DNA of 64,000 nucleotides from positions 310,001 to 374,000 of the forward strand of contig JALLLS010000002.1 of NCBI GenBank assembly GCA_025094145.1, read 5' to 3'. Origin of the DNA: Spinellus fusiger (Eukaryota; Mucoromycota; Mucoromycetes; Mucorales; Phycomycetaceae). Made by a program: the position numbers and the translations under genes. Positions within the stretch are counted from its first letter, which is position 1, and every line of letters starts with the position of its first letter. This document shows, in pieces, positions 15,084 through 22,054 of the stretch. The notes beneath the pieces are model-generated. The model was not told the origin of the DNA. It made no database searches and saw nothing but the letters and a program-made list of their open reading frames with translations.

Positions 15084-17837
15084 TATCATATATCGCCACA
15101 TCGAAAGTGGTTTCCTCCGGGATTCAGATATTTACAGGTAAATTTACATAATAATCTTATTAAGAACTAACATGAGTATATCTCACTTTATTTTTGCTCC
15201 TCAAATCGATGTCATCTCTTAAACAATTGTATGTCGATTATTTCCTTTTATATCCTAAAGATCTCCTGGTGTGTAGATATAGAAATAGAAATAGAATTAC
15301 AAACATAATATCCAATTAAAGAAATGATGATAATTAATAGTCCGTTTGTTTTATTTTATATCCCAAATACCTTTGAGCGTGAAGAAAGCAACAGTGTAAT
15401 TTACAAAAATAAACTATTCTTCAATAACATTGTTTATTATATAGTAATGATTAGCAAATAATGGTTGTTAGTGTAGCTGTTGATCTAGAGTAGTGAAGAG
15501 GCAGTGGGTTTATCTATCTCATTGAGTATAAACAGATAAATATTATGGAAAAAAAAAGAATCTTTCTTATTATTATTTACTTTAAAGTTCTTTAATTATC
15601 TGGAAATAGAATAATGCATTAATTAAAAGTGAATTAATAGAAACAACTTACAAGGCAGAGTTAGTTAGGATGATCCATCATCTTGTTCTCGTTTATGAAT
15701 TTAGATTGTCACTTGTATTTGAATAGAATACAGGTGTTATTTACATATCAAATGTTTTATTATGATTTAACAGGACTTTTTTTTATTTTATCTATTGATT
15801 CCATAATGATAATAAAGCATGAGAGTGGTTGTCGGTAGTGCAAGAATATGTGAAATACATCTAATGTGTGTCAATTCTTATTATAATAGTCATTCACTTT
15901 GGATCTATTGGCCAGTGCAAAGAATACAAAATATACTTGCATATATAGTTTATCAGATGCATAAAAACAAAGAATAAAATATTAAATTTATAGGATCGAA
16001 TCATGTTGGTAGCTCTTTATTTATTCTTTCTATCTGTTATGGTGTTTTCTCGGTGCTAAAACATAAAATAAATGCAAACAATGGATTTTGGCTCAATGAA
16101 GTATTTCTCTTTCTTCATTTGTGTATTTAAACGGAGAAAATAAAAACAGCCAATCATAAAGGTAGATGGGCCCGTGGAATATATCATTTCTTTACAAATT
16201 ACATGGTTCTTTTGATCTAAGTATTGGCTCAGGACGTTTTGTTTTATTTTAGTTTTGGTAAGCTTGGTAATCTTGGTTGCACTGGAAGGAAATTAAGCAC
16301 AAAGAAAGCCGGAAAACCCTGAAAGTCGGACTATTAACCTACTTTCCTAGTCTCTGTATCTTCTGATTTATTCCAGATTATTCCGTTGGGTGCATTTATC
16401 TGACAGAGGTGTAAGCACTTGTTACTGTTGGGTGTGAAATAAAGATTTACTGTTTTTGTAGACACCACATGTATTCATATGCATAGAAAATGCACTGATA
16501 AGAGACAGAATTTGATATACATAAGGCTTTAATAGTCTTTAACGAACAGATGAGTTGTAACACTGAGCCGCCATTGTCAGGAAATAAAAGCGGAAACCCA
16601 CAGGGGTGGGAGGGGTGGGAGATTTCCATGTCTTTCCGTCTTCCCCACTTTATTAAGTTTAAAAACTGGATAAACACAATAAAATGGAGATAATAAGAAT
16701 AGTAGAAAAGTTATGGTAACAGGTGCCCAATATGGAGAATGGACTCAGGTCCGTTTGTCTTACACCTGACCTGCATTAGCACAGTAGAATATCTCCTCAA
16801 GGTCTCATTTGACTAGACCTTTATAGCTAATAAGCCAGATACTAGTAAAAGAGAACGACATAGACAATGATAAAGATGTTCTGGAATAGACTATAGGCTT
16901 TTATTACTGATAATATTAATAATAAATGAGATATATAAAAAGATAGATATAAGATTAACACCACCACATCTCTTCTGACACATCTAATATATAATTATAA
17001 ATATATTATATGGGAAGCTGAGGAAGATTTATTGTAAGCCAAACTGTCATCAATAATGAGAATATACTCTTTCTTTTTACTCCCAGTCAAGAGAAGGTGT
17101 GGATTTGTTACATTTATCAGCTCATTTAGATGTTTGGTTTGTTTGATGATACTTATGACATCTGAACACCTTTTAAAGAAAGAAAATACAAGTATAACAA
17201 TAAGTCAAGTGCTCATCTTTCTGTAGGGTAGTTTTTTTTATTATTATTTTAATTTCTTAAAAAAACATAACATAACATAACATAACATAACATAACATAA
17301 TATAATATAATATAAACTGACTTATTACTCGATATATTCTTATGCATACTAACATTGATGTTCTTGATCGTTTCTTCTGTTTATCATTTTGCTCTTTTAA
17401 TGATGAGCTCAATGTAACATAACACTTGGCTTGGAAGTGTTCATCTTTAATGCAAGGAATATTAATGATTGTAGAGATTGTATTCTCTTTTCTAAGTGGG
17501 CCGAGCCCTAAACAAGAGACAATAGTATTCAGTATCACTGGTGATGATAATGCCTCTACTAACAATGCTGATTCTACTAATAGCACTAATTCTTGCAACA
17601 GTCTTTTCATCAGTATCGTGTTGTAACTATGAAACACATGAACATTAAGAACCCCGACAGCAGTGCTGTGGTATACAGTCCCAAGTAATAAGTGAGTGGA
17701 CAGAAAATTTTATTTTTCTATTTTTTATTTTGAGAAATAAAGGTATATCTATCAGTTTAAGATGTTCTTAATAAAAGATTCATGAAATAACACAAGATTT
17801 TTAATAGTTGTTCTTTAGATGTTTGTCTATATTCTTA
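15084..17837. other. AT-rich gene desert
   Basis: About 2.75 kb with no recognisable coding sequence on either strand. Contains a (CATAA)n microsatellite at about 17266-17300 that changes to TATAA. Probably decayed transposon DNA. Confidence 0.45.
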
Positions 17838-18280
17838 TTATAAAAATATTACTCGGTGCTTTGTAATAGAGTCTTTATTTTTAATCACTCTAGTCCCTTT
17901 ATCATTGCCCACAACTGTAAAGCGGGACTCATCAGACCAAACAGCCTTGTTTTCACATCATTCATATCTCTTAAATGAAGTGTAATTATTTGCATAGGGT
18001 TTCTGCGAATAGACAAAACGATAGCCAGTTTTGAAGTAGATGACACCTCTTCAAGTCTTTCTATATGCATTCTGGGTCGATTTATGCCTTTGTTTTTATA
18101 CAATTGGACACTCTTGCCCACTGTGCTCTTTGGGATATCAATACTGTCAGAAATCTCTTGATAAGTAGCATGTCTTTTCCATTGTCCTATGGTCTGACCT
18201 CTAATAAATATATCATGCTCTCTAAGACTATCTTTATATTCTTGGCTAAGACTTGGCTGATTTTCATTGCTTGGAGTCAT
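17838..18280 (-). pseudogene. Decayed Tc1/mariner-family transposase
   Basis: Begins with an N-terminal helix-turn-helix region (TIGQWKRHATYQEISDSI, then IPKSTVGKSVQLYKNKG) followed by RRNPMQIITLHLRDMNDV, typical of Tc1-like transposases. Then a frameshift and an apparent internal deletion of roughly 50 residues occur near 17955, after which the other frame reads AVWSDESRFTVVGNDKGTRV, the segment carrying the second catalytic Asp of the DDE/DDD triad. The frame stops soon after (17838), so the last acidic residue is missing. Inactive. No terminal inverted repeats were found around it. Confidence 0.75.
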
Positions 18281-18698
18281 TTCTTGAATAAGTTATAAGA
18301 GAGAAGAAAAAGACCTCTATTTTATTTTTCAAATATAAATAAAAAATTGGTTAGCCATCCACTCATTGATTGCATGGAACTATATATCTTAATTGCTCAG
18401 AAGCTATCATAAGGTGATTATTAGGCTCAATGCGTGAATAGCAACTAAACACCCAAAAATAAAAATAAAAATACTTTGAGCTGTAGCACTATCGTATTTA
18501 TGGGTGGACTTTATATGGCTTGCTAATGTACTATTGCTTCTATATTTCGAAGCATACTTCTATATTTCGAAGCATACTTCTATTGCCATTCTTAGTAATA
18601 AACTACTACTCTGACTTCATTGTAGATAGTAGAATATAGTTTAATATTCATATTCACCAATAAAGATAAGATCAAACACAATTATTTATAGGATAAGT
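18281..18698. other. Short intergenic stretch with a tandem duplication
   Basis: Between the Tc1 relic and the HTH-array gene. Contains two tandem copies of a 19-20 bp ATACTTCTATATTTCGAAGC unit near 18535-18580. Nothing else seen. Confidence 0.5.
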
Positions 18699-20189
18699 TC
18701 AAGTCTCATCATTGGCCTGTAAAAGGTGGACTGTACAGCTGGATTGATCATGCTCCTGCTTAATCTCTTCATTGTCTGTAGTGAGCTGTGATTCCACTTG
18801 TGAGTTTGGCTCAACTTCATTGGTAATTATGGACTTGGTCTCGATATCTTTTGTAGGTTCAAGACTTTCATTCTTCCTGGATGCCTTCAATATATTGTAA
18901 ACAGTCGATAAACCAATGCCAACCATGGCAGCTATCTTTTTTTGACTGAGTCCATTGACCTTGTGTTCATGTACGATGGTTTTGCGCATGTCTTCATCAA
19001 CACGTTTTCCCTTTTCACAAGTCTTATGTAGAGTTCCAGTACTAAGTGTATGTTCATTCAATATTTTACTAACAGTCGATAAGCTAGTACCCACTATGGC
19101 AGCTATCTTTTTTTGAGTGAGTCCATTGACCTTGTACTCATGTACGATGGTTTTGCGCATGTCTTCATCAACACGTTTTCCCTTTTTACAAGTCTTATGG
19201 GGAATTCCAGTACTAAGTGTATGTTTCCTCAAAATATTGCTAACAGTCTTTTGGTCAATATCAACCATGACAGCTATCTTCCTTTGACTGAGTCCATTGA
19301 CCTTGTGTTCATGTATAACAGTGTTGTGCATGTCTTCATCAACACGTCCCCACTTTTTACGAGTCTTATGGGGAACTCCGGTGCTAAGTGTATGTTTCCT
19401 CAATATTGTACCAACAGTTGTTTGGCTAGTGCCAACCATGGCAGCTATCTTCCTTTGACTGAGTCCATTGACCTTGTACTCATGTACAATAGTTTTGCAC
19501 ATGTCGTCATCAACACGTCCCCACTTTTTACGAGTCGTATGTAGAGTTCCAGTACTAAGTGTATGTTCATTCAATATTTTACTAACAGTCGATAAGCTAG
19601 TACCCACTATGGCAGCTATCTTTTTTTGAGTGAGTCCATTGACCTTGTACTCATGTACGATGGTTTTGCGCATGTCTTCATCAACACGTTTTCCCTTTTT
19701 ACAAGTCTTATGGGGAATTCCAGTACTAAGTGTATGTTTCCTCAAAATATTGCTAACAGTCTTTTGGTCAATATCAACCATGACAGCTATCTTCCTTTGA
19801 CTGAGTCCATTGACCTTGTGTTCATGTATAACAGTGTTGCGCATGTCTTCATCAACACGTCCCCACTTTTTACGAGTCTTATGGGGAATTCCAGTACTAA
19901 GTGTATGTTCATTCAATATTTTACTAATAGTACATGTACTGGTGCCCACCATGGCTGCTATCTTTTTTTGAGTGAGTCCATTGACCTTGTGTTCATGTAA
20001 GATGGTTTTGCGCATGTCTTCATCAACACGTTTCCCTTTTTTACGAGTCTTATGGGTATCTTCATCACTGAAATTCTGTTTATTGGTGTCCGTTTCCTCT
20101 GTATTGTTTCGTTGTTCAGTCATGCTTGCTTCTTCATTCGTGAAGGCCTTTTCAATATCATTTGCTTCTTCAGTGAATGAAATAGACAT
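18699..20189 (-). CDS. Seven-unit tandem helix-turn-helix array protein, no catalytic domain
   Basis: Intact intronless 496-aa ORF. It has a 45-aa acidic Ser/Thr/Glu-rich head, seven consecutive units of exactly 57 aa (residues 46-444), and a 52-aa acidic tail. Each unit has a basic lead (HKTRKKGKRVDEDM), a first helix (KTIVHEHKVNGL) and a helix-turn-helix (SQKKIAAMVG then TVSKILNEH), closed by the linker TLSTGIP. Two flavours occur, one ending KILNEH and one ending ILRKH, in the order A-B-A-B-B-A-A. The fold resembles the homeodomain-like HTH of Tc1-type transposases or Psq-like domains, but no DDE domain, nuclease or zinc finger follows. Seven units kept in one frame argue for a translated DNA-binding array. 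Function unknown: possibly a transposon-derived DNA-binding or repeat-binding protein. Confidence 0.8.
   Translation of the reverse strand: MSISFTEEANDIEKAFTNEEASMTEQRNNTEETDTNKQNFSDEDTHKTRKKGKRVDEDMRKTILHEHKVNGLTQKKIAAMVGTSTCTISKILNEHTLSTGIPHKTRKKWGRVDEDMRNTVIHEHKVNGLSQRKIAVMVDIDQKTVSNILRKHTLSTGIPHKTCKKGKRVDEDMRKTIVHEYKVNGLTQKKIAAIVGTSLSTVSKILNEHTLSTGTLHTTRKKWGRVDDDMCKTIVHEYKVNGLSQRKIAAMVGTSQTTVGTILRKHTLSTGVPHKTRKKWGRVDEDMHNTVIHEHKVNGLSQRKIAVMVDIDQKTVSNILRKHTLSTGIPHKTCKKGKRVDEDMRKTIVHEYKVNGLTQKKIAAIVGTSLSTVSKILNEHTLSTGTLHKTCEKGKRVDEDMRKTIVHEHKVNGLSQKKIAAMVGIGLSTVYNILKASRKNESLEPTKDIETKSIITNEVEPNSQVESQLTTDNEEIKQEHDQSSCTVHLLQANDET
18858..20054 (-). repeat. Seven 171-bp tandem coding repeats
   Basis: Units on the minus strand: 19884-20054, 19713-19883, 19542-19712, 19371-19541, 19200-19370, 19029-19199, 18858-19028. 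Units 2+3 (19542-19883) and 5+6 (19029-19370) are a 342-bp duplication differing by one base that I can see (T at 19327, C at 19840, giving His versus Arg), offset by exactly three units (513 bp). Confidence 0.93.
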
Positions 20190-21403
20190 TGAGTAATGAA
20201 GGTAGAGAATTGATATAGCTACGCTCCGGTGTAAATAAAGTAAACAGAAAGCAACCTCGGATATTTCAAATTCCGAACTGTTTTCATATCAAGACAACAT
20301 ACAGTCCAGAGTATATTATTTTATTATTATTTTAGGTGTAAATGCTATTTGCACATTGAGCATATTAGCCACTTTATCATAGCTTTTGAACAATTAAGAC
20401 ATACATATAAACACTATAAATACAAAAGTGAAAAGATAATGGGAAATGAGTAGAAATGACAGTAGATGCTAAGTTAAGAATAGACATCCAAAAAGGCCAT
20501 AAAGTCAGCAAGGAAACCAGGACACCAAAATAAAAGATAACCATCATCCTGTGGCGATTCGAAATCCGACGAGGGATAATTAGAGCAACTTGGACAATCC
20601 TGAAAATAAATACAGCAACTACACTTGCAGCTTCTGGCTTTGATAAACAGGTTATGAATGGGTGGTAGAGAAGTATTTGCACTCTATAGCAGTGTTGGTA
20701 TTCCCACTCAACACACCCATCAGCAGTTTATAGTTACAGACATGTCTTTTTCTCTGAGAATTTAAACACAAAGCTAAATCAGAGAACAAGCCTCCCCTTT
20801 TTTTCACTATTGAGACTGAATTGCCATGAAAGAGATACCTCACCAAGTCTATTTCTACGTTTTTATAGAGGGAGAGGTTGTAAGTGGTTTATATCTATTC
20901 ATAAAAGAATCATGGACCCTTTCTTATTTGTAATGTTGATTGAACAGAAGAGAAAAGATGTTAATAGACAGGCATTCAATGTCTTGTCTTGAAAGCGGCC
21001 AGCCAAATATAACAGATCAAGGCTTGAGAGGAGAGTTAAAGAAATGGCCGGAGAGCGGAATGTTGACTGAGGTAGAGGACGCCGGAAAGGATGGAGCCTT
21101 CCTTTCTTTTTCGTACTTTGTACTTGGTGAGTGCATACCATGAGTCTATAGAATCCTCCTAGTCTACACGATGCATGCATCTATATATATATCCATCCAT
21201 CCATCCATCCATCCACCTATATCCACCTATATCCACCTATATCCACCTATATCCACCTATATCCACCTATATCCACCTATATCCACCTATATCCATCTAT
21301 CCATCCATCTATTCTTTCATCATAAAGGCTTAATACGTGCATAAATCAGTTTTGACGTGATATCAAAAAGACAAGATTACTCACTCATCCTAGGAATATA
21401 GCC
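20190..21403. other. Intergenic, upstream of RPL10
   Basis: About 1.2 kb. A hydrophobic 101-aa open frame (20377-20682, minus) is unrecognised and unsupported. The last 220 bp carry ATCC and ATATCCACCT repeats next to RPL10. Confidence 0.4.
21182..21318. repeat. (ATCC)n followed by a 10-bp CTATATCCAC array upstream of RPL10
   Basis: Six or so ATCC units, then about eight near-identical copies of CTATATCCAC, then ATCC again. The array ends about 85 bp before the RPL10 ATG, so it lies inside the core promoter region. Confidence 0.85.
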
Positions 21404-22054
21404 ATGGGTCGCCGTCCCGCTCGCTGCTACAGATACTGTAAGAACAAGCCTTACCCCAAGTCCAGATACTGCCGTGGTGTCCCTGACGCCAAGCTGAGAA
21501 TCTACGACTTGGGCCGCAAAAAGGCACATGTCGACGACTTCCCTCTCTGCATCCACTTGGTCTCCAACGAGTACGAACAATTGTCTGCTGAAGCTCTTGA
21601 AGCTGGCCGTATTTCCTGCAACAAGTACATGGCCAAGACCTCCGGAAAGGATTCCTTCCACATGCGTATCCGTGTTCACCCCTTCCACGTCACCCGTATC
21701 AACAAGATGTTGTCTTGTGCCGGTGCCGATAGATTGCAAACCGGTATGCGTGGTGCTTTCGGTAAGCCCAACGGTCTGGTGGCTCGTGTCAACATTGGTC
21801 AGGTCATCTTCTCTGTCCGTACCAAGGACAGCAACAAGGCCGTTGTCATTGAGGCTTTGAGACGCTGCAAGTACAAGTTCCCTGGTCAGCAGAAGATCAT
21901 TGTCTCCAAGAAGTGGGGTTTCACTCCTCTCTCTCGCGAAGACTACGTCGAGGCCCGTGAGGCTGGCAAGTTCAAGCCTGATGGTTGTTACGTCAAGTTC
22001 CTCCCCAACAAGGGTACTCTTGCCAAGTACTTCCACGAAGTCAGCAGAGCCTAA
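21404..22054 (+). CDS. RPL10: 60S ribosomal protein L10 (uL16)
   Basis: Intronless 216-aa protein, the normal eukaryotic length. Opens [20 protein letters not shown], with KAHVDDFP, the P-site loop region ([18 protein letters not shown]) and the C-terminal KYFHEV. uL16 sits near the peptidyl-transferase centre and is the last essential protein loaded in cytoplasmic 60S maturation. Codon use is strongly biased to C-ending codons (GTC, ACC, AAG), unlike neighbouring genes, as expected for high expression. Surrounded by AT-rich intergenic DNA; the tandem array upstream may influence its promoter. Confidence 0.97.

Follow-up and report, generated by a model that had tools for sequence, protein, structure and literature searches.

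What is encoded by an intact reading frame built of seven helix-turn-helix (HTH) units joined head to tail, and what might such a protein do in the fungus that carries it? The question is raised by a tandem-HTH array gene on the reverse strand at 18699-20189 of a 64,000-nucleotide window (the whole stretch of DNA analysed) from Spinellus fusiger (Mucoromycota; assembly GCA_025094145.1, contig JALLLS010000002.1, positions 310,001 to 374,000; C110:310001-374000 in our numbering). On balance we favour an account in which this protein and its relatives are modular DNA-binding arrays of diversifying specificity, probably directed against transposon-derived DNA.

The preliminary description of this locus, made from the letters alone, had called the frame intact, with seven evenly spaced HTH modules, acidic ends and no enzyme domain, and in each of these respects it was borne out. 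From its ATG the frame stays open for 496 codons (496 aa) with zero internal stops. The seven unit starts are all spaced by 57 residues, without exception or change of length, and Tandem Repeats Finder recovers from the window DNA a 171-bp unit in 6.8 copies (82% matches, score 1502), a periodicity far stronger than chance would give. In Pfam, seven stretches of the protein are assigned to HTH_23 (E 8.3e-38 for the whole protein) and likewise seven to HTH_SB, the Sleeping Beauty transposase HTH, in agreement with the earlier assignment of the units to a transposase type. By charge count, an acidic N-terminal segment of 46 residues (20052-20189 (-), net charge -10) precedes the array, which carries +41, and the last 61 residues, end of unit 7 included, carry -9; the C-terminal tail, which is conserved in close relatives, and the stop lie at 18699-18854 (-). 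Seven units and short tails fully occupy the ORF, and no enzyme family is found among the best 25 of its 62 Pfam matches. Neither is a KRAB or other repressor domain found among those 25 matches, and the short tails could still hold a short linear motif.

Delimited by the 57-aa periodicity, the units on the reverse strand are unit 1 (19881-20051, recognition residues TC..SK), unit 2 (19710-19880, QK..SN), unit 3 (19539-19709, LS..SK), unit 4 (19368-19538, QT..GT), unit 5 (19197-19367, QK..SN), unit 6 (19026-19196, LS..SK) and unit 7 (18855-19025, LS..YN). At the DNA level unit 6 is an exact copy of unit 3, and unit 5 matches unit 2 at 99.4%, so that a unit block was recently duplicated. Units 1, 4 and 7 differ, giving five recognition types within this one protein, where only two unit types had been proposed. 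A structure model of a single unit (unit 3) yields three helices, at residues 7-24, 28-35 and 39-53 (pLDDT 78), so the fold is predicted to be the HTH expected from the preliminary description. The model of three units was poor (pLDDT 48.6) and was left out of any reading of array geometry.

Where the preliminary description treated a single protein, the window ORF turns out to belong to a large family with dozens of related genes. When the genome (38.08 Mb, 197 contigs) was searched in six frames, at least 103 rows matched, merged by eye to at least about 73 places (395 candidates, of which 86 were scored), and a single isolated protein or an artefact is ruled out by these ~73 family places. 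Fifty-nine of them were read, the other 14, mostly weak matches, being left out. The largest ORF holds one unit at 8 of the 59 places, two at 10, three at 10, four at 16, five at 5, six at 3, seven at 3, eight at 1, nine at 2 and ten, the maximum, at 1; at 15 places the ORF runs up to the edge of the contig or of the sequence retrieved, so its true length is possibly greater. Two or more units stand in the largest ORF at 51/59 places, and a single ORF contains every unit found at 53/59. Homologues with intact frames and 1-10 units, as the preliminary description had envisaged, are thus present in the fungus's own genome. For residue analyses we kept 206 of 232 unit matches (full length, ungapped; 195 distinct), and these 206 units from the 59 places carry 128 different recognition tetrads; the variation of the recognition helix claimed for the window protein holds there and across the family. 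Unit order matches between the paralogues L016 and L034 in the unit tree. We further note that array frames are more often open than related Tc1 transposase copies, with in-frame stops in 27/103 array rows vs 120/150 Tc1 rows (Fisher p 1e-17; stops counted by eye, rows from one place non-independent, row lengths unequal, and the Tc1 rows being 150 of 2246 candidates scored). At one locus (L019, 2985-5819 on C140) two array genes are arranged head to head, and an inverted repeat of 174 bp (97%) is found close to where they begin.

Judged by their sequences, the array units descend from the PAI half of the DNA-binding domain of a Tc1-type transposase, and the transposon origin first proposed for the window protein gains support from both alignment and tree. 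An array unit shares 41% identity with a Tc1 PAI from this genome and 25% with that of Sleeping Beauty; the genome holds at least 150 matches to its Tc1 family and at least 174 to DDE_3. In a tree rooted on the Tc1 PAI (read from the listed part, without internal support values) most last units are closest to the root and the inner units are nested, unit 7 of the window protein falling among the last units of other arrays, close to the Tc1 outgroup. The last unit of L042, at least, clusters with its own array instead, and the columns beyond the last helix, which differ in last units, may contribute to the clustering of the others. The RED region of local Tc1 transposases aligns with the C-terminal ends of L016, L024 and L019b (hhalign 97.6%, E 4.2e-12 for one template), ends that Pfam does not recognize, and L034 has a similar end by eye, so that four diverged members appear to keep a RED-like end. 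The window copy retains, by eye, at most a linker-like start of the tail from the RED side. In 24 oriented array loci no DDE domain overlaps the array ORF, and separate Tc1 DDE relics occur in the fetched flanks of 15 of these 24. An ordinary transposase is ruled out by this absence at the 24 loci and by the lack of a DDE domain in the 25 best of the window protein's 62 Pfam matches. The PAI and RED likenesses, the tree and the absent DDE are best read as a transposase DNA-binding region in which the PAI was amplified and the nuclease lost.

Analysis of the pattern of change within the unit indicates where the family varies. Profile numbering is unit residue minus 2, with the recognition helix beginning at 37, and the tested set comprised positions 37, 38, 41 and 42 (recognition-helix positions 1, 2, 5 and 6), taken as putative DNA contacts from their place in the helix. 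Among 162 distinct units amino-acid entropy is 3.20 bits at 38, 3.17 at 37, 2.84 at 6 and 2.72 at 42, with 41 ranking ninth (2.32 bits). In parsimony counts on the tree, an excess of nonsynonymous change at p<0.01 is reached singly by positions 1, 6 and 37 in all units and by 1, 6, 37 and 42 in units over 55 bits; positions 38 (omega 1.23, 1.12) and 41 (0.97, 1.12) are not singly above neutral. Several scaffold codons are strongly constrained, with omega 0.05 at position 18. Pooled over 160 distinct array units, the four positions give omega 1.48 (S 75, N 312) vs 0.67 for the rest, on a tree whose model is violated by unit exchange between arrays, and the contact value exceeds the rest in 30/30 resamples by ORF. 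The Tc1 PAI control (40 sequences fetched from the 150 Tc1 rows, 39 distinct) gives 0.48 vs 0.48, with few changes at the contact positions (S 12.5, N 13.5).

The same excess is seen between close relatives. With each unit used once, in disjoint pairs, the four positions give 1.76 vs 0.63 in 46 pairs of 85-98.5% identity (p 0.0018), 2.72 vs 0.55 in 27 pairs of 90-98.5% identity (p 0.0017) and 1.48 vs 0.59 in 51 pairs of 80-98.5% identity (p 0.0007), and a larger set of 54 pairs from 195 units gives 1.75 vs 0.63 (Fisher p 0.0011). Synonymous change at these positions is not raised in the 195-unit set (pS 0.099 vs 0.097), which disfavours a mutation hot spot. The choice of the four positions followed inspection of amino-acid entropy in these very units, and random sets of four match the observed ratio in 1.35% of draws in the 160-unit tree test and in 8% in the 195-unit pair test; they do as well because change is also rapid at arm positions 1 and 6 (4.04, 195-unit set). 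Outside the units, the C-tail is constrained (dN/dS 0.31; eight close relatives, 49 codons beginning in the end of the last unit) and the N-tail little so (0.82; ten copies). Both estimates come from close relatives among the 24 oriented loci, L031 being dropped from the C-tail set as shorter.

Because change is unusually rapid at residues that would be in contact with DNA, the arrays have the look of DNA readers that are evolving as a set, on an unusual scaffold. That the family consists of sequence-specific DNA-binding arrays we consider very likely. That their specificities are diversifying under selection seems reasonably likely, an estimate lowered by positions 38 and 41, which are not singly above neutral. 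A target range made up mainly of transposon-derived DNA is a prediction that falls somewhat short of an even chance. More tentative still is the fullest version, in which dozens of PAI-derived HTH arrays would form a fast-evolving genome-defence repertoire against Tc1/MITE elements, in which about four residues of each unit's recognition helix, together with arm residues, would determine specificity, and duplication would determine unit number. Arrays grow when blocks of units are duplicated, units 2-3 and 5-6 of the window protein being an example. Within the unit the scaffold is constrained, and change is faster than elsewhere on the exposed face of the recognition helix and at two further residues, one of the basic arm and one where helix 1 starts, subject to the statistical limits given above. 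The array protein would lie along DNA with one unit per short subsite, in which case seven units could read several tens of base pairs, and the conserved C-tail may contact partners. Such proteins would regulate in a sequence-specific way, most likely by repressing or competing at DNA derived from Tc1 and MITE elements, and would be drawn into an arms race like the one proposed for tandem zinc-finger proteins.

The arrays could instead be transcription factors of the host that act on ordinary genes and have expanded in the manner of other lineage-specific TF families, the transposon neighbourhood being incidental; we regard this as somewhat unlikely. It would account for the mostly intact frames, the conserved C-tail and the unit order kept between L016 and L034. 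It would also fit the 5' flanking region common to a close subfamily (20190-20299 (-) in the window): a 25-mer from this region (20256-20280 in the window, 3 mismatches) occurs at 15 genome places at up to 3 mismatches, and comparison of positions puts an array gene downstream of it at all 15, about 1.1 kb away at C110:247556. The fast change of the recognition residues argues the other way, as rapid change of this kind is unusual in factors tied to many gene targets.

Doubtful, too, is the suggestion that the array is an element-encoded selfish gene, the cargo of a composite element between two inverted MITEs with which it spreads, its protein aiding or regulating the element through end binding or copy control and serving the element, not the host. 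MITE-like elements with TA + CAGTTCAAAGTAT-type ends do stand beside many copies of the window subfamily, and the spacing between MITE end and array gene is similar for several copies. The clearest case is L032 (2951-5343 on C147), where a two-unit gene lies between 727-bp inverted arms that are 99.7% identical and have TA at both outer ends; L026 has 725-bp inverted arms of 99.9% identity, and the Tc1 DDE relics in array flanks point in the same direction. The window copy is arranged differently. Upstream of it is a truncated or rearranged MITE-like element (20300-20726) with the inner end TACAGTCCAGAGTAT, and downstream an inverted, degenerate MITE end (18383-18485) with the tip TACAGCTCAAAGTAT. 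These tips point toward the gene, so the window copy is not inside one simple transposon, and the idea of simple transposon cargo whose TIRs would be the MITE ends is ruled out there; outward-pointing ends with TA are found only on the larger L032 block. The end motif has no match at up to 2 mismatches in 7 of the 20 loci L009-L028. Joining the flanks of L032, of which the left is a genome repeat resembling a Tc1 HTH relic by eye, gave no empty site: the joined sequence matches flank by flank, with 1/40 rows running 9 bases past the join. A fixed end-binder, moreover, would not need diversifying recognition residues.

A decaying by-product, in which functionless transposase relics carry a coding minisatellite, is highly improbable. 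The stops in some array rows, the 171-bp repeat and the loosely held N-tail would suit it; against it stand the constraint on scaffold codons such as position 18 and on the C-tail, and frames open more often than in related Tc1 copies.

Two further elements of the inverted-repeat kind were observed. At L049 (740-3333 on C119) inverted arms of 583 bp (94.5%), related in pieces to the MITE arms beside arrays, enclose a 335-aa ORF for a Tc1 transposase. In the window, an element of about 0.8 kb (17674-18485) with TACAGTCCCAAGTAA and inverted TACAGCTCAAAGTAT ends contains a weak HTH relic ORF (17885-18280 (-)) and is perhaps a deleted Tc1.

Returning to the arrays as diversifying DNA readers, tandem zinc-finger proteins appear to be their closest analogue in behaviour, and in the C2H2 type the DNA-contact residues change fast. 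TAL effectors also have tandem DNA-binding units with variable recognition residues, which are 34-aa hairpins; the arrays differ in fold and unit size, each unit being a whole 57-aa HTH. CENP-B-like domesticated transposases, in which transposase HTHs have been retained as chromosomal proteins, are pogo-derived with two HTHs and a DDE relic, whereas the arrays are Tc1-type with many HTHs and no DDE seen. Pipsqueak of Drosophila has a fixed four units, and we know of no diversification of their recognition residues. Tc1/mariner transposases (PAI + RED; Sleeping Beauty, Tc3) share the PAI-type HTH, and some diverged arrays appear to keep a RED-like end, but the arrays repeat the PAI up to ten times, with RED decayed, no DDE seen and the recognition helix diversified.

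Tandem zinc-finger proteins, KRAB-ZFPs included, form a large family of proposed silencers of foreign DNA (PMC4592553). The arrays are likewise composed of DNA-binding units in a large family, with unit number varying among array genes; their HTH scaffold is unrelated to the zinc finger, and unlike KRAB-ZFPs the window protein has no KRAB or other effector domain among its best 25 of 62 Pfam matches. The preliminary description knew of no protein of such a design, a claim that is not supported: Drosophila Pipsqueak has four HTH domains in one protein (PMC10379775). HTH-Psq factors are described in PMC10027918 as pogo transposase-derived and expanded in several animals. Pipsqueak is thus a precedent for stacking several transposase-derived HTHs in one protein, and differs in being pogo-type with a BTB domain (PMC10379775, PMC10027918), whereas the arrays are Tc1-type and the window protein has 46 residues before unit 1 and no N-terminal BTB/POZ. 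HTH_psq does not appear in the 25 best-scoring of the window protein's 62 Pfam matches, and searches of open-access papers turned up no description of a Tc1-PAI array family.

Relatives of the window protein at E<=1e-3 were absent from the 7999 protein-database candidates sharing most words with it and from viral, bacterial and archaeal contigs, as were relatives at E<=1e-5 from plasmids. This says little about distribution outside the genome, as the searched collections appear to contain few fungi. A search with a 10-member alignment retrieved one weakly matching metagenome protein, P0001 (249 aa; E 5.9e-7, 27% identical across 40% of the query), with about four HTH units in a row by eye, a likeness that could be convergent, the design perhaps having arisen independently there.

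Few kinds of modular array read long stretches of DNA, the familiar examples being zinc fingers and TAL repeats. A large natural family of whole HTHs, with 128 tetrads in 206 units, would make an HTH recognition code testable on natural variants, and if the genome-defence reading is true such a code could be read from the family itself. The family would also show the conversion of a transposase into a diversifying set of DNA-binding proteins.

Beyond the upstream MITE-like element, the window carries an RPL10 gene at 21404-22054, whose best PDB matches are ribosome entries that we take to be fungal, and the general appearance of the genes is fungal as well. Just upstream of RPL10, at 21188-21312, lies a short tandem repeat with a 10-bp unit, ATCCACCTAT, and variants of it.
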